Shown here in pieces: positions 50,730 to 62,291 of a stretch of DNA of 64,000 bases. A program made the translations under genes and the position numbers. This stretch comes from Pseudanabaena frigida (GTDB lineage Bacteria > Cyanobacteriota > Cyanobacteriia > Pseudanabaenales > Pseudanabaenaceae). Each line of letters starts with the position of its first letter. Within the stretch, counting starts at the first letter, position 1. The stretch is taken from positions 1-64,000 of the forward strand of contig QBML01000005.1 in NCBI GenBank assembly GCA_003242085.1, written 5' to 3'. The notes under the pieces were generated by a model. It saw only the letters and a program-made list of their open reading frames with translations, ran no database searches and was not told the origin of the DNA.

Positions 50730-51296
50730 TTATTCTAGCATTAGCATCTGGCGAGCCAAGGTTTGAAAAACTTCATCTACGCCTTCTCCTGTTTTAGCAG
50801 ATGTTCCTTTTACTGACACTTTTAGACTATCTAACTCAAGACAAATATATTGAAAAAGTTTATCTCTTTCATGGCTTTCTATTAAATCGACTTTGTTCAA
50901 AGCAATAATTGAGCTTGATTTGGGATTAATTGATTGAAAAAGTTGGATATGATTTTTGAGGTTTTGCATACTTGATTGTCTCGTGACATCACCAACTATT
51001 AACGCTCCCTTCGCTCCTTGCAAGTAACTAGGAGCAATTCCTTTAAAGCGCGTACTTCCCTCAATATCCCAAATTATTAGTTGTAATTGTTTGGATTCTG
51101 TTGTAGAAATATTTGCTGTATTTTCACCTAAATCGGGAATATCTACTAGTTTTCGTGAGATTTTTACACCAACTGTTGACAAATATTTGTCACTGAATTG
51201 ACGATCGACAAACTGACGAATTAGGCTAGTTTTACCAACACCAAAATCGCCAACAAGACATATTTTTTGAGAGATTACTTTGGGCAGAGAATGCAT
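50730..51296 (-). CDS. Ras-like small GTPase
   Basis: 188 residues with Rab/Ran-like sequence: G1 GDFGVGKTSLIRQF (about residues 17-30), switch I YLSTVGVKIS with the conserved Thr, G3 WDIEGSTRF (Glu-Gly in place of the usual Ala-Gly, no Gln), G4 NKVD near residue 133, G5 TSAKTGEG. No C-terminal prenylation motif, as expected in bacteria. The altered G3 suggests low intrinsic GTP hydrolysis (inference). It follows the roadblock-like/OmpA gene by 22 bases and is likely co-transcribed. GTPases of this group often pair with roadblock proteins as regulators. Confidence 0.9.
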   Translation of the reverse strand: MHSLPKVISQKICLVGDFGVGKTSLIRQFVDRQFSDKYLSTVGVKISRKLVDIPDLGENTANISTTESKQLQLIIWDIEGSTRFKGIAPSYLQGAKGALIVGDVTRQSSMQNLKNHIQLFQSINPKSSSIIALNKVDLIESHERDKLFQYICLELDSLKVSVKGTSAKTGEGVDEVFQTLARQMLMLE

Positions 51297-51318
51297 TTAA
51301 TTAGATTGTTTCGGACAT

Positions 51319-54030
51319 TTATTTCAGCGTAGGTTCAAACTCTACCCACCTCGACAGTTGATCGGAAGGTTGGTTAACTGGTGATTCTATTATTCCAGAA
51401 ATATGTAACCGATTGGCATTTACGCCCCTTTGAATTAAAGCATCCCGCACGGCTTGGCAGCGCTGCATACCTAGCTGATAGTTGATATTGCGATCGCCCA
51501 CATTATCACTTTTTGTAAAAATCTTGATATTAAAATCTGGATAAGTGTCTAAAAAAGTTTGGACTTCAACAATTTTTTCCAAATCTGTTGGTTGCAACGT
51601 AGTTGCCTTAAATGGGAAGTAAATGCGAGTTAGTAGTTTCGGTACTAGCGTCGTCGTAGCGTTAGTGACTGCTGTAACTCCAGCAATTTTGGTATAAGTC
51701 TGCGTGATTTTAGGAATCATGCTTGGCTGTTCGACTTGTCCTGTAATCGTAACTTGACCATCTTTAAACTGGCTGCTAATTTTGACCCCTGATGTATAGT
51801 TGAGTACTTTGGTGAGTCGTTGGACTTCATTCGCAACGAGAACGGGATCTGGTGGAACATTGACAGTGTAGATGTTGTTGTTGATTTTGCCGATCGCTAT
51901 TTCCGATCTTGTAGCTTCGACCACCACTTGGAGCGCGCGATTGCATAGGTATTGATTGGGCAACTTTCCTGTTAATTTGAGGCGATCGCCTTCAGCTGCA
52001 ACATTAAGTCGATAAACTGCAAGTTCAGGGGTACTGGCAAATGCTTCTAATACTTTGGCTTCGAGTTGACGATCGCGATTAGCTTGATACTGATAAATTC
52101 CGATCGGCACGCAAATTAGAGCAGCTAAAGCTAAACCAAGGAAAATCAAGGTTTTTACTGATTTTTTAGGAGATTGAGCTTTCTCAACTTCCATCAAAAC
52201 TTGCAGCTCACTTTCTACTTCGATCGGAATGACACTATGATCGCCATCAAATAGCTTGAGGCGATCGCTATAGGCTTGCACGATTCGACCAAAAATATCG
52301 CGAATTTTGTTTACCAAAGCCGCATCTGGTTCTCCTTGAATGATTACAGCAAGATAGCAATATCCTGCTACTTCTAGCAAAATTTTAGAGCCACTATAAT
52401 TAATCGCATCAAGCTCTGTTGTACTTTCCGATCGCGACATACATTCACTGGCAAAGCTACGAATAGCGGTTAACATCCCTGCGAGCATATCGGAATCAAT
52501 CGGCTCAGCTAAGGAATTGAGATCGCTTTGTTGAATATCAACCATCACTAATCCCGAAAGATTATGAATCAAAAATACGGCTTGTACTTCAAAGGGAACT
52601 GATTCTTTAAGAATTAATTCTGCTTCAGAAACACCTTGCATTTTGGCTCGGATTTTTCGTTGAAATCCTTCAACACTAAAGGTTTGTTCGACTTTTTCAT
52701 TAATCGAGCGAATTGCTTCAGCAAAATACTTAGCGATCGTATTCCCAATCACAGGATAGAGCGCATCAACCATCGAGTCTCGTTCGAGGTCAATCTGACG
52801 CTTAATTGCCGCCCCCATCTCTGGAGCAAGTGCATCAATAATTTCATCACGATCGAGGCGAATTTGTTCGCGAATTGCCGCTCCCACCTCTGGAGCGATC
52901 GCCTTAGCAATTTCTTGGGGACTATTGCGAATTTGCTCGCTAATGGCATTGGGTAAGATATCAGCGATCGCGTGGCTCATAGCAACACGATCCATCTGCG
53001 ATCGCTCAAAAATCACCTCAGCAATAATCGGCATGATTGCTTGACACATCTCTTCTCGAGACTGATTAGCCTTGAGGTTAAGTATTTCAGCAATAATTGG
53101 CAGTATAAGTTGAACTAATTGATCGGGTTCATAAATACGATGCTCAAGCTCGGCAACCCGATCTCGGACTCTCGCGATTTCAGTAGGTATATTATTTTGC
53201 TCATCCCCCATTTCTGAGAGTTTTGAGCCTAAATTGCTGAGATTGAGAGATGACATTTGCATGAGGTTCTCTAGCTCTTCAATTTTGTTCATCATCTCAG
53301 GGCTATTAACTTGCTTTTCGACGATTCCCAGCTTTTGTTCAACAGAAATTTTGAAGTTTCGGAGATCTTCTATCTCTGGGACAACCAAAATATCTTGCAA
53401 AAGATGTAATGCTTTGGCATCTTCTGATGATTCTTCGGGCAAATCTGCTGAAGATACCTTTGATATTTCCTGCAACGGTGATAGAGATATATTCTCAGTC
53501 GAAACTTGAGATTCTTTACTACCTAAAAGAAGATTCTGAATAAGATCGATCGTTTCTTCTCTTTTTTTCGTAGTTAAATATTCAGAATTATCGGAGAGAT
53601 TTAAATTCTCATCTCTAGAAGATTCACTATTGACAACCTCAATTTTACTAGCTTCAAAAGGTTGGATATCGCGTAAAAAAGGCAGTTCGTCTAACAGATT
53701 AGGAAAGGGATAATTATAGGTCGATCGCTTGTTCTCAATATCTTCTACAGTTGCTTTGTCTGATAATTCTTTCTCAATTTCCACTAATTTTGGTTTAGCT
53801 TTGAATTCTTTATTCTTAGGGGCAATATCTCTAGAAAAAGATTGAGGATTTGGTGGTGTGACGTTTCGTGCTACTTCATTAGCTTCAGCAGAGGAAGTGA
53901 CTATCGGTTCCCCATTTTCGGTATTTTTAGAATTATCTGATTCAATAATTTTTAGATCGGAAAGCAAGATGATCAATTTCTCAACATCGCTGAGAGCTTG
54001 GTTATTAGAATTGCTTTTTCTCTCCGACAT
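51319..54030 (-). CDS. Roadblock-like / BON / OmpA-domain membrane protein
   Basis: 903 residues. Residues 1-250 are low-complexity and acidic, a cytosolic tail. Residues 290-440 have 30-36-residue repeats (APEVGAAIREQIRLDRDEII) ending in DALYPVIGNTIAKYFAEAIR. About 455-610 is a roadblock/longin-like domain (AVFLIHNLSGLVMVDIQQ ... KILLEVAGYCYLAVIIQGEP). A membrane helix at about 628-648 follows, then BON-like repeats (AEGDRLKLTGKLPNQYLCNR and KDGQVTITGQVEQPSMIPKI) and a C-terminal OmpA peptidoglycan-binding domain (IYFPFKATTLQPTDLEKI ... RCQAVRDALIQRGVNANRL). It therefore could link a cytosolic GTPase to the cell wall. The neighbouring GTPase is the obvious partner. Confidence 0.85.
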   Translation of the reverse strand: MSERKSNSNNQALSDVEKLIILLSDLKIIESDNSKNTENGEPIVTSSAEANEVARNVTPPNPQSFSRDIAPKNKEFKAKPKLVEIEKELSDKATVEDIENKRSTYNYPFPNLLDELPFLRDIQPFEASKIEVVNSESSRDENLNLSDNSEYLTTKKREETIDLIQNLLLGSKESQVSTENISLSPLQEISKVSSADLPEESSEDAKALHLLQDILVVPEIEDLRNFKISVEQKLGIVEKQVNSPEMMNKIEELENLMQMSSLNLSNLGSKLSEMGDEQNNIPTEIARVRDRVAELEHRIYEPDQLVQLILPIIAEILNLKANQSREEMCQAIMPIIAEVIFERSQMDRVAMSHAIADILPNAISEQIRNSPQEIAKAIAPEVGAAIREQIRLDRDEIIDALAPEMGAAIKRQIDLERDSMVDALYPVIGNTIAKYFAEAIRSINEKVEQTFSVEGFQRKIRAKMQGVSEAELILKESVPFEVQAVFLIHNLSGLVMVDIQQSDLNSLAEPIDSDMLAGMLTAIRSFASECMSRSESTTELDAINYSGSKILLEVAGYCYLAVIIQGEPDAALVNKIRDIFGRIVQAYSDRLKLFDGDHSVIPIEVESELQVLMEVEKAQSPKKSVKTLIFLGLALAALICVPIGIYQYQANRDRQLEAKVLEAFASTPELAVYRLNVAAEGDRLKLTGKLPNQYLCNRALQVVVEATRSEIAIGKINNNIYTVNVPPDPVLVANEVQRLTKVLNYTSGVKISSQFKDGQVTITGQVEQPSMIPKITQTYTKIAGVTAVTNATTTLVPKLLTRIYFPFKATTLQPTDLEKIVEVQTFLDTYPDFNIKIFTKSDNVGDRNINYQLGMQRCQAVRDALIQRGVNANRLHISGIIESPVNQPSDQLSRWVEFEPTLK

Positions 54031-54077
54031 ACTATTTCGCGTAATGATAGCTGCATATACTATAACGTTTTGCCATC

Positions 54078-54108
54078 AGAAAGGGCAGCGCAAAGCGCTA
54101 CCTTTTCT
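54078..54108. terminator. Hairpin within the GTPase cluster
   Basis: AGAAAGG..AGCGC / GCGCT..CCTTTTCT around AAA with an internal two-base mismatch, between the coiled-coil gene and the OmpA gene. It may lower downstream expression. Confidence 0.6.
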
Positions 54109-54116
54109 AGCAGAAT

Positions 54117-54815
54117 TTACAGCTTAGACTTGGAGCGCGTTGTCGTTTTAGTTGTGGTACTGGTTGGTTGTGTATCCGTAGCAAACGAAGTGGAACGCTC
54201 AGTCTTTGGTTCAGAGCCCAGTATATTAACTTGCTCGTACTTCTCTTCCGCCCGTTCTTCAGCCGCTTCACGCAGTTCTGGCACAAACTCAGAACCCTTG
54301 AGCCTCATGCCTAACTCAAATAGCAACTCTGCCATATCGTCCTTAGAAATTTTGTCTTCACGAAGAATCGAGAAATGACGGTCTAACTCTTCTAAAACTA
54401 GCGATCGCAGTTCGCGGTTATCATTTTGGAGGCTGTCTCTAGTTTGAGCAAGTTCTTCACGCAGAGAGAGTCTTTGGGCTTCAACGGCCTCATCGAGAGT
54501 CTCGATGCTATTGGTAAACTTACGATTAATACGATCGAACTGTTGGCGCAGATCGGCTGCTTCTTCCTGAGTTGACGCACTAATAGTTTTTAGGCGCTTA
54601 TCAATTGACTCAACCGCTGTGCGTAATTCGATCGCTAAAACCGATTTTAATTCGTTAAGGCGATCGCGGACATCCTGCTGAATCGCGGAAATATCGGATT
54701 CTGCCTTATCTAGCCGACTGGTGTACTCGCGCAAATGTGCGCCGAAAATGATATCGCGAATTTGATCGATATTGCCTAAGCGTTCGCGGATTTCATCTCT
54801 GGTGATTTCACCCAT
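54117..54815 (-). CDS. Coiled-coil protein of the GTPase/OmpA cluster
   Basis: 232 residues, mostly one long helix (residues 25-165; KAESDISAIQQDVRDRLNELK ... FDRINRKFTNSIETLDEA), then a basic Ser/Thr-rich tail (TSTTTKTTTRSKSKL). No signal peptide or membrane helix. The start at ATG 54815 has AAGAGG about eight bases before it. It is the first gene of the leftward cluster. The family is not recognised by name, though similar proteins with ERLGNIDQIRDIIFG openings occur beside OmpA genes in cyanobacteria as far as I recall. A scaffolding function is inferred only from shape. Confidence 0.7.
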   Translation of the reverse strand: MGEITRDEIRERLGNIDQIRDIIFGAHLREYTSRLDKAESDISAIQQDVRDRLNELKSVLAIELRTAVESIDKRLKTISASTQEEAADLRQQFDRINRKFTNSIETLDEAVEAQRLSLREELAQTRDSLQNDNRELRSLVLEELDRHFSILREDKISKDDMAELLFELGMRLKGSEFVPELREAAEERAEEKYEQVNILGSEPKTERSTSFATDTQPTSTTTKTTTRSKSKL

Positions 54816-56825: not shown

Positions 56826-56951
56826 ATGAACGATGCAGAATTATTGGCAATAATGATACAAGCTGAGCGAGATCGCTGGACAGAACTCGATTTTTCGGGC
56901 AACGATCTGGAAGCATTGCCAATCGCAATTGGACGATCGCAAAATACATAG
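56826..56951 (+). pseudogene. N-terminal remnant of an LRR-Roc gene
   Basis: The 41 codons MNDAELLAIMIQAERDRW... closely match the first 41 of the LRR-Roc-COR-CHAT protein at 58815 (MTDAELLAIIAQAEREGW...), including ELDxSGNDLExLPxxIGR. After GRSQNT the frame stops. It is a truncated second copy of the same gene head, seven bases after the UbiB-family gene. Confidence 0.75.
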
Positions 56952-56973
56952 CACTAAGTGCTATAGTAAAGTG

Positions 56974-57374
56974 ATGAGGATCTATAAAACTCGTTGGTTC
57001 GACCGTTGGGCGCGGAAGCAGGGGCTAAATAATCTTAGTCTATGTTTAGCTGTGCAAGAAATGATGGAAGGGCTATATGAGGCAGATCTGGGTGGTGGAT
57101 TAATCAAGAAACGAGTTGCACGAACTGGACAGGGTAAAAGTGGAGGTTTTCGAACATTAGTTGCTACAAATAGAGGCGATCGCTGGATTTTTGTATTTGG
57201 TTTTGCTTTGGTTTTGCTAAGAGCGATCGCGCCAATATCAATAAACAGGAAGAGGAAGCTTTGAAGAAATTGTCTAATCATCTTCTGACATTATCAGTAG
57301 AGGATTTGGCTATTGCTCAGCGTAATGATGAATTAATAGAGGTAATTTGTGATGAAGAAATCAGTAATTCTTGA
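56974..57374 (+). pseudogene. RelE/ParE-type toxin gene with frameshift
   Basis: From ATG 56974 the frame encodes MRIYKTRWFDRWARKQGLN ... KKRVARTGQGKSGGFRTLV ... IFVFGFA, the pattern of the RelE/HigB-like toxin family with a GxGxSGGxR-type core. At 57197-57218 the 11-base string TTGGTTTTGCT is tandemly duplicated; removing one copy restores AKSDRANINKQEEEALKKL..., which continues to TGA at 57372-57374 and overlaps the antitoxin start as in intact family operons. The present frame instead ends at 57264 with a scrambled tail. The toxin is therefore probably inactive. Restored length about 129 residues. Confidence 0.8.
57197..57218 (+). repeat. 11-bp tandem duplication
   Basis: TTGGTTTTGCT is present twice, with no base between the copies, inside the toxin gene. 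It shifts the frame by two. Confidence 0.9.
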
Positions 57375-57663
57375 AGCGGTGCATGAAACTGCTAAGGGGC
57401 TACATCAGGCTGGCGTGATGGATCAAGTTACTTTACGCGAGTTCGATCGCTTGTGTTTGCCGCCAGTGGAACCGTTACAGCCTGAGCAAATCAGGCAAAT
57501 TCGAGAAGCTTGTCGTGTGAGTCAGGCAGTGTTTGCATCTTTGCTAAATACGAGTGTGTCAACGGTACAGAAGTGGGAAATCGGACAGAAACGCCCAAGT
57601 GGAACTGCGCTAAAGTTGTTACATCTAGTCAAAAATCGCGGTTTAGAAATCATCACTTTTTAG
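57352..57663 (+). CDS. XRE-family antitoxin
   Basis: 103 residues from ATG 57352 (a GTG three bases earlier is also possible). A HigA-like layout: an N-terminal region KKSVILEAVHETAKGLHQAG, then a helix-turn-helix from about residue 45 (LQPEQIRQIREACRVSQAVFASLLNTS, with VSTVQKWEIGQKRPSG as recognition helix and turn). It overlaps the end of the restored toxin frame, the usual toxin-first order of this family. It represses its own operon by family knowledge. The frame is intact although the partner toxin is not. Confidence 0.88.
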   Translation: MKKSVILEAVHETAKGLHQAGVMDQVTLREFDRLCLPPVEPLQPEQIRQIREACRVSQAVFASLLNTSVSTVQKWEIGQKRPSGTALKLLHLVKNRGLEIITF

Positions 57664-57735: not shown

Positions 57736-58032
57736 ATGAGTATTACCGCAACAATTTATCCTTATATTGCTACTAGTGCTGAGATTGCGGGTGGTGCGCC
57801 AATTATTGAAGGTACGAGGGTAACGGTGCGGCGGATTGCTGGATATTATCAGATGGGGATGAATGTGGATGAAATTTTAAGTGTGCTTTCTCACTTGCGA
57901 CCTTCTCAGGTACATTCGGCACTTGCCTATTATTTCGACCATCAAGAGGAAATTGAAAAGGATTTGGAAGAGTCTTCTAATATCGAGTATTGGAAGAGTC
58001 AAGCGTTAGTTCATCCTAAAGCGGGTCGTTAA
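57736..58032 (+). CDS. DUF433 protein (first copy)
   Basis: 98 residues with the DUF433 pattern: GGAPIIEGTRVTVRRIAGYYQMGMNVDEILSVL, then LRPSQVHSALAYYFDHQEEIE. DUF433 is a short winged-helix-like domain that is usually the antitoxin-type partner of DUF5615 PIN-like proteins. Here it is followed by a second DUF433 gene and one DUF5615 gene, so the single toxin may have two possible partners. ATG 57736; weak ribosome binding site. Confidence 0.88.
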   Translation: MSITATIYPYIATSAEIAGGAPIIEGTRVTVRRIAGYYQMGMNVDEILSVLSHLRPSQVHSALAYYFDHQEEIEKDLEESSNIEYWKSQALVHPKAGR

Positions 58033-58077
58033 AGATGGCTATTGTTAAATACTACAAAATTAGGATCAGATAAAATA

Positions 58078-58410
58078 ATGAAAGTTACACTCGATCGCTA
58101 TATTGAGATTACGCCTGATATTCGTGGAGGTAAGCCGCGCATTGCTGGTAGACGCATTACGGTTGCAGATGTGGCGATCGCTTATTTACGATTAGGACAG
58201 TCACTCGAAGAAGTTGCGGCGGAGTATGACCTCACTTTGTCGGAAGTGTATGCAGCGATGTCATTTTATTATGATAACAAAGTGGCGATCGATGAGAGCA
58301 TTCAAGCTTCAGAGACTTTTGCGGATTCCCTACGTTCGCTTTATCCTTCTCTTTTGCAAGAAAAAATCAAGATGTTAAAGGATGTCAGAACGAATTCGCT
58401 ACCATCTTGA
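58078..58410 (+). CDS. DUF433 protein (second copy), antitoxin-type partner
   Basis: 110 residues from ATG 58078 (MKVTLDRYIEITPDIRGGKPRIAGRRITVADV). DUF433 core as in the first copy, but with a longer C-terminal tail (QASETFADSLRSLYPSLLQEKIKMLKDVR). Its end overlaps the start of the DUF5615 gene by 29 bases, which supports translational coupling and identifies it as the cognate partner. The first copy is only loosely similar, so this is not a recent tandem duplicate. Confidence 0.88.
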   Translation: MKVTLDRYIEITPDIRGGKPRIAGRRITVADVAIAYLRLGQSLEEVAAEYDLTLSEVYAAMSFYYDNKVAIDESIQASETFADSLRSLYPSLLQEKIKMLKDVRTNSLPS

Positions 58411-58717
58411 TGAAAACGTCAGCTTTGCGATCGCTCAAGGATTAAGACGTGCTGGGATTGATGTAACTATTCCACGCGAAGTAGGTTTGATTGGCAAAAG
58501 TGATATGGAGCATTTGGTATTTGCGAATGCTGAGAAGAGGGTTCTGCTTACCCATGATGATGATTTGTTAGTTTTGGCGCATCGTGGCTGTGAGCATTAT
58601 GGAATTACCTATTGTCGTAAAGAGGCAAGATCTACAGGTCAAATTATCCGATTGTTGATTTTGCTGTATGAGGTTGCATTAGCTGATGAAATGCAAGGAA
58701 AAATTGAGTATTTATAG
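58382..58717 (+). CDS. DUF5615 PIN-like protein, probable toxin
   Basis: 111 residues with the compact PIN-like fold: YHLDENVSFAIAQGLRRAGID (first Asp of the acidic site), GLIGKSDMEHLVFANAEKRVLLTHDDDLL (second acidic cluster) and a C-terminal helix. DUF5615 proteins are predicted nucleases paired with DUF433 proteins in toxin-antitoxin-like modules. The ATG at 58382 lies inside the preceding gene. The acidic residues appear intact, so the protein may be active. Confidence 0.88.
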   Translation: MSERIRYHLDENVSFAIAQGLRRAGIDVTIPREVGLIGKSDMEHLVFANAEKRVLLTHDDDLLVLAHRGCEHYGITYCRKEARSTGQIIRLLILLYEVALADEMQGKIEYL

Positions 58718-58814: not shown

Positions 58815-61800
58815 ATGACAGATGCAGAGTTATTGGCAATAATCGCACAAGCAGAACGTGAGGGCTGGACGGAACTCGATCTGTCGGGGAATGATCTAGA
58901 AGGATTGCCTAGTGAAATTGGACGGTTGCAAAGTCTGGAAAAGTTGATTTTAGGTAAGTGGATTGATGGGATAGGAAGTAAAGTAAATCGTTTAACTGCT
59001 ATTCCTCAAGAGATTTTTCAATTAATCAATCTCAAAGAACTTCAAATTCCATACAACCAAATTACGCAGATACCAGACGCGATCGCAAACTTATCAAATC
59101 TGACTTCGCTTGACCTCTCTAGCAACCAAATCACGGTGATACCTGACTCGATCTCCAACTTAGCCAATCTGACTTCGCTTGACCTCTCTAGCACCCAAAT
59201 TACGGCGATACCTGACTCGATCTCCAACTTAGCCAATCTGACTTCGCTTGACCTCTCTAGCACCCAAATCACGGCGATACCTGACTCGATCTCCCAATTA
59301 GCAAATCTGACGGAGCTTTACCTCTTTAACAACGAAATTACGGTGATACCCGACGCGATCGCCCAATTAGCAAATCTGACTAGGCTTAACCTCCATAGCA
59401 ACCAAATTACGGTGATACCCAACGCGATCGCCCAATCAGCAAATTTGACGGAGCTTTACCTCTTTAACAACGAAATTACGGTGATACCCGACGCAATCGC
59501 CCAATTAGCAAATCTGACAGAGCTTCGTCTCGATAACAACCAAATTACGGTGATACCCGACGCGATCTCGAACTTAGCAAATCTGACTATGCTTAACCTC
59601 TCTAGCAACCAAATCACGGCGATACCCTACTCGTTATCCAACTTAGCCAATCTGAGGGAGCTTTCCCTCTATAGCAACCAAATCACGGCGATACCTGATG
59701 CGATCACCAACCTTACCAATCTTTCTCAGTTTTTCCTCGGTGGTAACCAAATTACTCAGATTCCAGAGGCGATCACCAACCTTACCAATCTCTCTTGGCT
59801 TTCCCTCTCTAGCAACCAAATCACGGCGATACCAGACTCGATCCAAAACTTAGCAAATCTGACAGCGCTTTACCTCTCTAGCAACCAAATCACGGCAATA
59901 CCAGACTCGATCCAAAGCTTAACTAAATTGGAATATTTAGATTTGCGTGGCAACCCGATTAGTATTCCCCGTGATCTTCTAGCTCCATCGGATATCTTTT
60001 CTCGACCTTCTGCACGTCCAATTCTTGGCTATTATTTCAGTATCCAAGATCCCAAGGAAACTACCCAAATCTATGAAGCAAAAATCTTGATAGTTGGTGA
60101 AGGTGGTTCAGGCAAAACTAGCCTTGCCAACAAACTGATTGATGCTGATTATCAACTTAAACCTGAAGCTGAGGATATTTCCACACAGGGCATCGATATT
60201 TTGCAATGGGAATTTACAGGACGCAATCAGCAAACCTATAAAGTGAATATTTGGGACTTTGGCGGACAGGAAATCTATCATCAAACCCATCAATTTTTCC
60301 TAACCGAGCGCTCCCTCTATCTATTAGTTGCCGACAGCCGCAAAGAAGACACCGATCATTACTTTTGGCTGCAAATCATCCGTTTACTCGGCAAAGATAG
60401 CCCCGTGCTATTGATTCAAAACGAAAAACAAAACCGTACCTGTAACCTCAATCTCCGCGAACTACGCGCCGAATTTGAGCATCTCGACCTACCTCAAAGC
60501 ATCAACCTCGCCGACAATCGCGGACTAGCAGAAATCAAAGAAACCATTCAGCGCAACCTCGAAGATCTCCTACCTAAAGGAGTTGCTTTCCCTAATTCAT
60601 GGCTGAATGTTCGCTATGCCCTCGAAAATGACGGGCGCAACTATATCGCTTTTAGTGAATACGAATCAATTTGTCGATTACATAAAATTAGCAATACTCA
60701 AGAGATGCTAGATATCAGCGACTTTTTACATCGACTCGGCATCTGTCTCCATTTCCAAAAAGACCCCATCCTCCGCCATCGCCTTATCCTCAAACCCAAC
60801 TGGGGAACTGCCGCCATTTACAAAATTCTGGATAATGAGAAAGTCAATAAAGAACTGGGACAGTTTTGTGATGCTGATTTAGACAACATTTGGCAAGAAA
60901 GTCAATATAACAATATGCGCCATGAACTTCTGCAATTAATGAAGGAGTTTAAAGTCTGTTACGAAATCCCCCACCATAAGGGGAACTACATTGCTCCTCA
61001 CCTCCTCCAAAAAGATCCTCCCAACTACGATTGGGATACTAGCCAAAATCTGATCCTGCGCTACCGTTACAAAATCTTTATGCCCAAGGGGATTTTAAGC
61101 CGCTTTATTGTGGAAATGCACCAAAATATTGAAAACGTTTCCGATCCCAATCTCGCTTTGGTGTGGAAATATGGCGTTGTCCTCAATCAGGGTAACACCC
61201 GTGCCGAAGTCACCGAACGCACCCACGATCGCGAGATTCGGATTCGCCTCAGTGGTTCAGGACAAAAAGAATTCCTCAACATCATCAACCATGAATTTAA
61301 AAAAATCCACGATCGCTTTGAAAACCGCCTAGAATACGACACCCTCATCCCATGCAACTGCACTAAATGTAAAACGCTCATCGAGCCAAATATGTACAAA
61401 CTAGACGAGCTAAAACGATTTATTGAGCAACGCGAACCAAATATTCAATGCTATATAAGCTTTAAACCCGTCAATGTTCTTCGCCTACTTGACGACTCCA
61501 TCGACCCCGATCGAGATCGAAAACTTCATGACATAGGTGATGACATTAGTAATATTGAAGATAGGCGATCGCGCCATAAGAAGGAAGATCATCGAGGTGA
61601 TACTTATATTTTTGAAGGACAAACAGGACAAGTAGTTATTGGGGAGCTGAAAACCAGAGGTAAAAATACGGGCATACAAAACAACGACCTCAGCCAAAAA
61701 GCAGTTCCTGAAACATCACCCCAAAATCACGCAAAAGACGCAACTAAACCCATGAAAACGATCCTCATGCTTGCGGCAAATCCTAAAAATTCAGTCTCTT

Positions 61801-62291
61801 TGAGACTTCAAGAAGAAGAACGCTTGCGCCTCGCTGGTTATGGTACAGAACCCATCAAAACTGCTGTAGCTGTTCGTCCTAGAGATATCCAACAAGCCAT
61901 GCTAGACTTCAAACCTCAAATCATTCATTTCTCAGGACATGGAGCCGATGAAGATGGATTAGTATTTGAAGATATCGATGGACAATTTAAATTAATTGGT
62001 GGAGAAGACCTAGCCGATCTCTTCGATCTATTTAGCGATCGCATTGAATGCGTTGTCCTCAATGCTTGCTATAGCAAAACCCAAGCCGAAGCTATCCGCC
62101 AAAACATCAAATATGTAATTGGCATGAATCAAGCTATTGGTGATCGAGCAGCGATTGAGTTTGCTGTGGGTTTTTATGCAGCGATCGGTGCAGGAGAATC
62201 CTACGAGTTTGCTTTTAAACTAGGTTGCAATGCTATTCGCTTAGCAGGAATCAAAGAATATGCTACTCCGAAACTTTTAAAGAAAAGTTAA
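58815..62291 (+). CDS. LRR-Roc-COR protein with C-terminal CHAT peptidase domain
   Basis: 1158 residues. About fifteen 23-residue leucine-rich repeats (residues 20-385; QITAIPDSISNLANLTSLDL type) precede a Roc GTPase: P-loop GEGGSGKTS (residues 428-436, K434), then switch II DFGGQE at D481. COR follows to about 830 (WLNVRYALENDGRNYIAFSEY, then LGICLHFQKDPILRHRLILKP). A linker with GDTYIFEGQTGQVVIG leads to a CHAT-type domain (about 979-1158): MKTILMLAANPKNSVSLRLQ, His1042 in IIHFSGHG, Cys1085 in VVLNACYS. This equals sensor, switch and protease in one chain, as in plant and bacterial NLR-like systems. No signal peptide: cytosolic. A remnant of the same gene lies at 56826. Confidence 0.92.
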   Translation: MTDAELLAIIAQAEREGWTELDLSGNDLEGLPSEIGRLQSLEKLILGKWIDGIGSKVNRLTAIPQEIFQLINLKELQIPYNQITQIPDAIANLSNLTSLDLSSNQITVIPDSISNLANLTSLDLSSTQITAIPDSISNLANLTSLDLSSTQITAIPDSISQLANLTELYLFNNEITVIPDAIAQLANLTRLNLHSNQITVIPNAIAQSANLTELYLFNNEITVIPDAIAQLANLTELRLDNNQITVIPDAISNLANLTMLNLSSNQITAIPYSLSNLANLRELSLYSNQITAIPDAITNLTNLSQFFLGGNQITQIPEAITNLTNLSWLSLSSNQITAIPDSIQNLANLTALYLSSNQITAIPDSIQSLTKLEYLDLRGNPISIPRDLLAPSDIFSRPSARPILGYYFSIQDPKETTQIYEAKILIVGEGGSGKTSLANKLIDADYQLKPEAEDISTQGIDILQWEFTGRNQQTYKVNIWDFGGQEIYHQTHQFFLTERSLYLLVADSRKEDTDHYFWLQIIRLLGKDSPVLLIQNEKQNRTCNLNLRELRAEFEHLDLPQSINLADNRGLAEIKETIQRNLEDLLPKGVAFPNSWLNVRYALENDGRNYIAFSEYESICRLHKISNTQEMLDISDFLHRLGICLHFQKDPILRHRLILKPNWGTAAIYKILDNEKVNKELGQFCDADLDNIWQESQYNNMRHELLQLMKEFKVCYEIPHHKGNYIAPHLLQKDPPNYDWDTSQNLILRYRYKIFMPKGILSRFIVEMHQNIENVSDPNLALVWKYGVVLNQGNTRAEVTERTHDREIRIRLSGSGQKEFLNIINHEFKKIHDRFENRLEYDTLIPCNCTKCKTLIEPNMYKLDELKRFIEQREPNIQCYISFKPVNVLRLLDDSIDPDRDRKLHDIGDDISNIEDRRSRHKKEDHRGDTYIFEGQTGQVVIGELKTRGKNTGIQNNDLSQKAVPETSPQNHAKDATKPMKTILMLAANPKNSVSLRLQEEERLRLAGYGTEPIKTAVAVRPRDIQQAMLDFKPQIIHFSGHGADEDGLVFEDIDGQFKLIGGEDLADLFDLFSDRIECVVLNACYSKTQAEAIRQNIKYVIGMNQAIGDRAAIEFAVGFYAAIGAGESYEFAFKLGCNAIRLAGIKEYATPKLLKKS
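59053..59940 (+). repeat. Tandem 69-bp LRR coding repeats
   Basis: The LRR part consists of 69-bp units (one 23-residue LRR each). Neighbouring units differ by only a few bases, for example the two that both read CTGACTTCGCTTGACCTCTC near 59160 and 59230. Such near identity at DNA level points to recent amplification or gene conversion, and the count may vary between strains. Confidence 0.8.

Follow-up and report, generated by a model that had tools for sequence, protein, structure and literature searches.

The open reading frame (ORF) considered here lies in a 64,000-nucleotide stretch of the genome of the filamentous cyanobacterium Pseudanabaena frigida (GenBank assembly GCA_003242085.1, contig QBML01000005.1, positions 1 to 64,000 of the forward strand), hereafter the window, and encodes in a single chain leucine-rich repeats (LRRs), a Roc GTPase, a COR domain and a C-terminal CHAT domain. 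Sequence comparisons lend good support to reading this Roco protein as a sensor, a switch and an effector, and likewise to viewing the effector as a recombinable cassette swapped between receptors; cassette exchange and linkage to toxin-antitoxin (TA) genes are both seen in Pseudanabaena. We consider it moderately probable that the protein is a single-chain intracellular receptor, with the LRRs as sensor, Roc-COR as switch and a caspase-like CHAT effector that would kill or arrest the cell.

Domain architecture and selection

The LRRs, Roc, COR-A, COR-B and CHAT all give Pfam matches above the curated cut-offs (for CHAT, PF12770 over residues 978-1127, E 4e-8, 33.4 bits for a cut-off of 24). 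This architecture recurs in eight Pseudanabaena genomes, among them that of the window, so the gene is not an assembly artefact. With a Roc domain that has P-loop and switch II and is followed by COR, the protein is a Roco: in an alignment of 32 Roc-COR sequences, P-loop residues G25, K26 and T27 are invariant and DFGGQE is invariant or nearly so. An initial annotation of this DNA had proposed the domain order, as well as the P-loop with K434, DFGGQE, His1042 and Cys1085, all of which are exactly where it placed them. Its fifteen LRRs are right in so far as there are about 15-16 units (13 regular and 2-3 degenerate N-terminal ones), but only 11 satisfy the strict pattern, while its term 'NLR-like' can be kept as an analogy only, since NACHT, NB-ARC and any other STAND ATPase domain are absent from the Pfam matches of the protein, the switch domain of which is a Ras-like GTPase.

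The same annotation had made its reading depend on a structural match of residues 979-1158 to CHAT, and this match is clear. Sequence profile, His/Cys motifs and a caspase/separase-like fold in the predicted structure all identify the domain, whose PDB relative by sequence is the SAVED-CHAT chain 8tl0 (E 9e-12). An AlphaFold model of residues 974-1158 (predicted local distance difference test, pLDDT, 82; predicted template modelling score, pTM, 0.84) has 8tl0 as its top Foldseek match (E 2e-11), and VIA-align Z scores are 18.8 for 8tl0 (182 residues), 13.7 for DdvA, about 12 for separase, 11 for C11 and about 10 for caspases. His1042 and Cys1085 are invariant across 36 aligned CHAT sequences. 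Caspase-like proteolysis is the predicted activity of this domain, with the caution that its first helix carries a deletion (see below). The nearest CHAT relatives scanned serve as effectors at the N-terminus of NTPases of the AAA_35 and nSTAND1 types, so that this CHAT subfamily appears paired with two kinds of NTP switch. In a model of Roc-COR-CHAT, the domain arrangement of which is not taken as evidence, Roc and COR fold well and the linker (residues 895-977) is mostly disordered (pLDDT below 50 for the greater part of model residues 487-569), which is why CHAT probably sits on a flexible 83-residue tether.

Selection acts unevenly along the chain. Between the window gene and its orthologue in Pseudanabaena lw0831, the ratio of non-synonymous to synonymous substitution (dN/dS, pairwise and, for the LRRs, approximate, as it was computed on aligned repeats) is 0.63 for the LRRs, 0.08 for Roc, 0.21 for COR, 0.50 for the linker and 0.07 for CHAT, the CHAT values ranging from 0.05 to 0.14 and those of Roc being about 0.08. 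By these estimates, the LRRs are the fastest-diverging part, and purifying selection is strong on both Roc and CHAT. Within the array, the LRRs vary at unit positions 3, 5 and 7 of LxxLxLxx, that is, on the concave face, and LRR variation is likewise on the concave face in the ROCO candidate immune receptors of brown algae (PMC11378527). The annotated scheme, in which one chain joins a sensor, a GTPase switch and an effector of caspase-like type, thus finds support in fast LRRs, constrained Roc and CHAT, an exchangeable effector and CHAT kin on STAND-type NTPases.

The course of events that we regard as most likely, because of the GTP cycle of CtRoco (PMC11052575) and the immune protease SAVED-CHAT (PMC11229360), would be that (i) the LRR arc binds some ligand, (ii) binding is reported by the Roc-COR nucleotide cycle and a monomer-dimer change, (iii) CHAT is turned on in what would be a GTP-gated step, most likely via meeting partner chains or release from the receptor body and (iv) CHAT cleaves proteins, leading to cell arrest or death. 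Release of the protease through a Roc-COR dimer change is a conjecture, and the protein as a whole might serve in conflicts with phages or with invaders of other kinds.

Exchange of the effector cassette

The ten Pseudanabaena CHAT-Rocos sit on at least three divergent backbones, in which Roc and COR are 33-42% identical and CHAT up to 98%. In lw0831, two paralogues share 42% identity in Roc, 33% in COR (where synonymous sites are saturated) and 97.8% in CHAT, with a synonymous divergence (dS) of 0.20 in CHAT. The reverse case is provided by SR411 and lw0831, where Roc and COR are 94-95% identical and CHAT only 79% (dS 1.44). DNA alignment between divergent Rocos restarts at window residue 906-908, both with L051 and with L164, which puts the cassette border directly after COR, at the DDIS-IEDRRSR segment. 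With L164, the window has two blocks in common, one upstream (Table 1) and one covering linker and CHAT from residue 908 (83.6%), and the Roc-COR core between them is dissimilar. Closely related backbones with unlike tails are also found in different strains: CHAT in L158 and helical in L160 (88% DNA identity up to residue 765), CHAT in L141 and membrane (transmembrane) in L116 (89% DNA identity), and CHAT in L164 and membrane (transmembrane) in L165 (92% DNA identity). On a Roc-COR tree, the CHAT state changes at least six times, a number that is approximate because the tree was built rapidly and some of its branches are long.

As for the source of the cassette, a search for a near-identical stand-alone CHAT donor gave none (the best was 71%). 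Phage records hold zero matches to the window's CHAT at 1e-5, and none of the plasmid records spans 80% of the protein at a single location; nothing therefore points directly to a copy carried by a phage or a plasmid.

The search for this architecture and its neighbourhood across cyanobacteria, which the initial annotation had proposed, found COR in 50 of 386 genomes (86 matches listed), Roco genes in 21 of 26 Pseudanabaena genomes and the window-type CHAT fusion in eight of these 26 (10 genes), the nearest named relatives with the full architecture being Pseudanabaena lw0831, SR411 and CAN_BIN31. In the genome from which the window comes (5.39 Mb in 67 contigs) there are 34 CHAT matches and four Rocos that differ in their tail (CHAT, helical, membrane-anchor and one other). 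Beyond Pseudanabaena, the tails recovered, in rough classes assigned by pattern, are TIR, membrane, helical, other and one CHAT of a different subtype. The latter (L072:4153-8691, minus strand) belongs to another cyanobacterial family and is an independent fusion of LRR, Roc, COR and CHAT, its CHAT being longer and different (E 8.5e-35). In L042/L155 (Pseudanabaena CAN_BIN31, a metagenome-assembled genome), the CHAT frame ends early after NACYSEVQAEAIRQKFNM, which suggests a frameshift or an assembly error because the tblastn match runs longer. A tandem pair of Roco genes with differing membrane tails lies on one strand in L148 (G389:C1:1219500-1231000).

Tails have a further property. In many cyanobacterial Rocos (for example L047, L048, L049, L058, L071, L054), a Met commonly opens the C-terminal module, and a Shine-Dalgarno-like motif stands before such Mets, for example CAACAGGAGCAA-n-ATG. 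Module-start Mets chosen by hand, once the sequences had been seen, are not used as evidence. Counted without selection in a non-redundant set, 25 of 137 tail Mets have such a motif before them, versus 28 of 527 body Mets (p 8e-6; p 2e-4 versus non-Met linker codons), and the pairing of tail Met and motif may, by analogy with RpnS (PMC10327210), reflect internal translation of the effector alone. For the window gene this is not claimed: the motif is absent before the candidate internal start, Met979, in every Pseudanabaena copy examined.

Table 1. The Roco-CHAT gene, its parts and the genes directly upstream (window coordinates)
Feature	Position	Strand	Basis
LRR-Roc-COR-CHAT ORF	58815..62291	+	One intact frame, 1158 residues, ATG start, TAA-type stop included
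LRRs, about 15-16 units, residues 19-395	58869..59999	+	Pfam LRR_8 (E 5e-86) and others; unit listing
69-nt tandem repeat array, 12.4 copies, within LRR region	59054..59912	+	Tandem Repeats Finder
Roc GTPase, residues 423-537	60081..60425	+	PF08477, E 2.8e-25; PDB relatives 6hlu, 8r4b
P-loop GEGGSGKT with Lys434	60096..60119	+	Sequence
Switch II motif DFGGQE, residues 481-486	60255..60272	+	Sequence
COR-A, residues 593-731	60591..61007	+	PF16095, E 2.2e-43
COR-B, residues 744-894	61044..61496	+	PF25497, E 2.5e-38
Linker, residues 895-977, predicted disordered except short strand near end	61497..61745	+	pLDDT
Exchangeable linker+CHAT cassette, about residue 906 to stop	61532..62291	+	DNA alignment between divergent Rocos resumes at residue 906-908
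CHAT (caspase/separase-like) domain, residues 979-1158	61749..62288	+	Pfam match, alignment, model, structure comparison
15-bp in-frame deletion (DIKER, CHAT helix 1), flanked by GAACG-type repeats	61817..61818	+	Comparison with other Pseudanabaena copies
Catalytic-type His1042 in HFSGHG	61938..61940	+	Sequence; alignment
Catalytic-type Cys1085 in NACYS	62067..62069	+	Sequence; alignment
RelE/HigB-like toxin gene	56929..57264	+	PF06296
Helix-turn-helix antitoxin gene, MqsA/HigA-like	57349..57663	+	Pfam HTH_3
DUF433 antitoxin-type gene	57736..58032	+	Pfam; 95% identical copy adjoins different Roco-CHAT gene in L141
DUF433 antitoxin-type gene	58042..58410	+	Pfam
DUF5615 PIN-like toxin-type gene, 98 bp 5' of Roco gene	58382..58717	+	Pfam
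Upstream block common to L164 (DUF433, DUF5615, first 52 Roco codons), 91.7% DNA identity	58042..58971	+	DNA alignment

Toxin-antitoxin neighbourhood and alternative readings

DUF433 or DUF5615 genes lie within 1.5 kb upstream of 18 of the 35 Pseudanabaena Roco genes, versus one of 90 control ORFs (Fisher p 3e-11, the 35 genes being non-independent as they come from related genomes). All these upstream genes are on the Roco strand, and downstream cases number two among the 35. More generally, most of the small genes upstream of Rocos (n=49) match TA families, versus about two of 35 controls; the link is weaker in other cyanobacteria. In L159, L164 and L165, a copy 96-100% identical to the window's DUF5615 gene stands upstream of a different Roco. 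At the tyrA locus, G405, the closest relative examined, has no Roco, and in G389 there is a Roco-CHAT with a different backbone, together with a 95% identical DUF433. Two CHAT-Rocos that have neither DUF433 nor DUF5615 (L153, L158) have XisI/XisH-like genes upstream, XisH having been named by eye. Elsewhere in the window, positions 50730-54815 (minus strand) hold a small Ras-like GTPase gene, a 903-residue and a 232-residue gene, with a distant Roc-profile match, and this gene order beside aarF is kept in the genus members whose aarF region was read.

One explanation for this arrangement is that the Roco gene is a passenger of recombining TA arrays, repeats and shared TA copies driving the mosaicism instead of selection on a receptor. 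TA blocks that are about 92% identical in DNA upstream of different Roco cores are what it would predict, as is the near-constant upstream, same-strand position of the TA genes, yet such a passenger would hardly be expected to show the strong purifying selection on Roc and CHAT or the invariant catalytic-type residues seen here, and we find this explanation improbable. Conversely, the TA genes might be a working part of a polymorphic Roco system, anchoring the locus and giving shared recombination sequence, in which LRR cores and cassettes (CHAT, membrane, helical) would be reshuffled, so that specificity and killing mode could evolve independently; this is possible, if doubtful, and is put forward tentatively.

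Several points weigh against the receptor reading. The activity of the LRR-Roc-COR-CHAT protein is a prediction, from sequence and models, and the disordered tether by itself offers no hint as to the way in which CHAT would be gated by Roc-COR. Families with a known anti-phage role show no enrichment beside Rocos (PADLOC, E <= 1e-15, about 5 of 79 neighbours, with similar or higher numbers for 79 controls). Finally, the window's CHAT may be impaired, because its model is weak across the first 40 residues and 15 bp have been lost from helix 1, a loss confined to the window copy (other Pseudanabaena fusion copies keep DIKER) and not remarked on in the initial annotation.

This last point could be taken to mean that CHAT, catalytically dead, serves as an adaptor or decoy, or that the window copy is decaying, the deletion and low model confidence coinciding in the same place. 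Since His and Cys do not vary across 36 sequences, the ORF is intact and CHAT has a dN/dS of 0.07, we judge this very improbable. The PADLOC result bears on two other matters. First, the initial annotation had seen in a TA island backing for a defence role; the TA context is real and strongly non-random in the genus, but, as there is no enrichment of known defence families, the surroundings amount to a TA neighbourhood and not to a demonstrated defence island, and nearby anti-phage families were dropped as support for defence. Second, it would suit a protease that regulates stress responses, cell division or development and does not serve immunity. So would the 34 CHAT genes of the genome, which suggest that CHAT is a general-purpose module there, and the precedent of HetF, which has a CHAT domain and, in the account of it we cite, acts in filamentous cyanobacteria in division and heterocyst differentiation (PMC8406250). 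However, the patchy distribution (eight of 26 genus genomes, and no Roco at the tyrA locus of G405) and the combination of fast LRRs with swapped effectors are unlike a housekeeping regulator, and we consider this alternative unlikely. The single-chain receptor outlined above remains our preferred reading.

Relation to known systems

If true, the receptor reading would mean that in a bacterium a caspase-like protease is controlled, within one chain, by the GTPase switch known from the LRRK2/DAP-kinase family, and that the same protease is swapped between receptors via recombination. It would provide a simple bacterial system in which to study the gating of an effector by Roc-COR, a long-standing question for LRRK2, with pairs of closely related receptors, alike except in their effector, as ready-made experimental controls, and would tie Roco proteins to bacterial immunity, as proposed in algae. 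The paper collection searched contained no paper joining Roc-COR with CHAT, or Roco with anti-phage activity.

The closest structural precedent for the core is CtRoco of Chlorobium tepidum (6hlu, 8r4b), which matches residues 91-848 over LRR-Roc-COR (E ~1e-86), the match ending ahead of CHAT, and in which GTP drives opening and monomerisation, a model for a dimer-to-monomer cycle (PMC11052575). For the effector, it is SAVED-CHAT of type III CRISPR and CBASS (8tl0), a proven immune protease family that has the same fold and catalytic His/Cys motifs but whose switch is a SAVED domain binding cyclic tri-adenylate (cA3) and not Roc-COR with LRRs (PMC11229360). The cyanobacterial CHAT-AAA_35 and CHAT-nSTAND1 proteins have a CHAT of one subfamily with that of the window (54-61% identity between them among those scanned), except that their CHAT precedes an ATPase switch, whereas that of the window follows a GTPase switch. 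The brown-algal LRR-ROCO candidate receptors share LRR-Roc-COR, 23-residue LRR units and concave-face variation, but are eukaryotic, are diversified via exon shuffling and splicing and, in their main groups, are without a C-terminal protease (PMC11378527).

The architecture class itself is already known. Kaur et al. (2021, eLife, PMC8195603) describe, in their treatment of LRR-"AP-GTPase"-COR proteins, predicted counter-invader systems with at least 24 alternative C-terminal domains including caspase, for which protection against invaders is likewise a prediction. The likeness is extensive: a fast-evolving N-terminal LRR, AP-GTPase/Roc, COR and a variable C-terminus (caspase, TIR, GT4, trypsin and others in that account), a combination also seen in the proteins analysed here, with TIR tails on other cyanobacterial Rocos, and several paralogues per genome with different effectors, as in the window's genome. 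What Pseudanabaena adds to the systems as set out there is the exchange, between strains, of one cassette among divergent backbones, and the linkage of these genes to upstream TA arrays.

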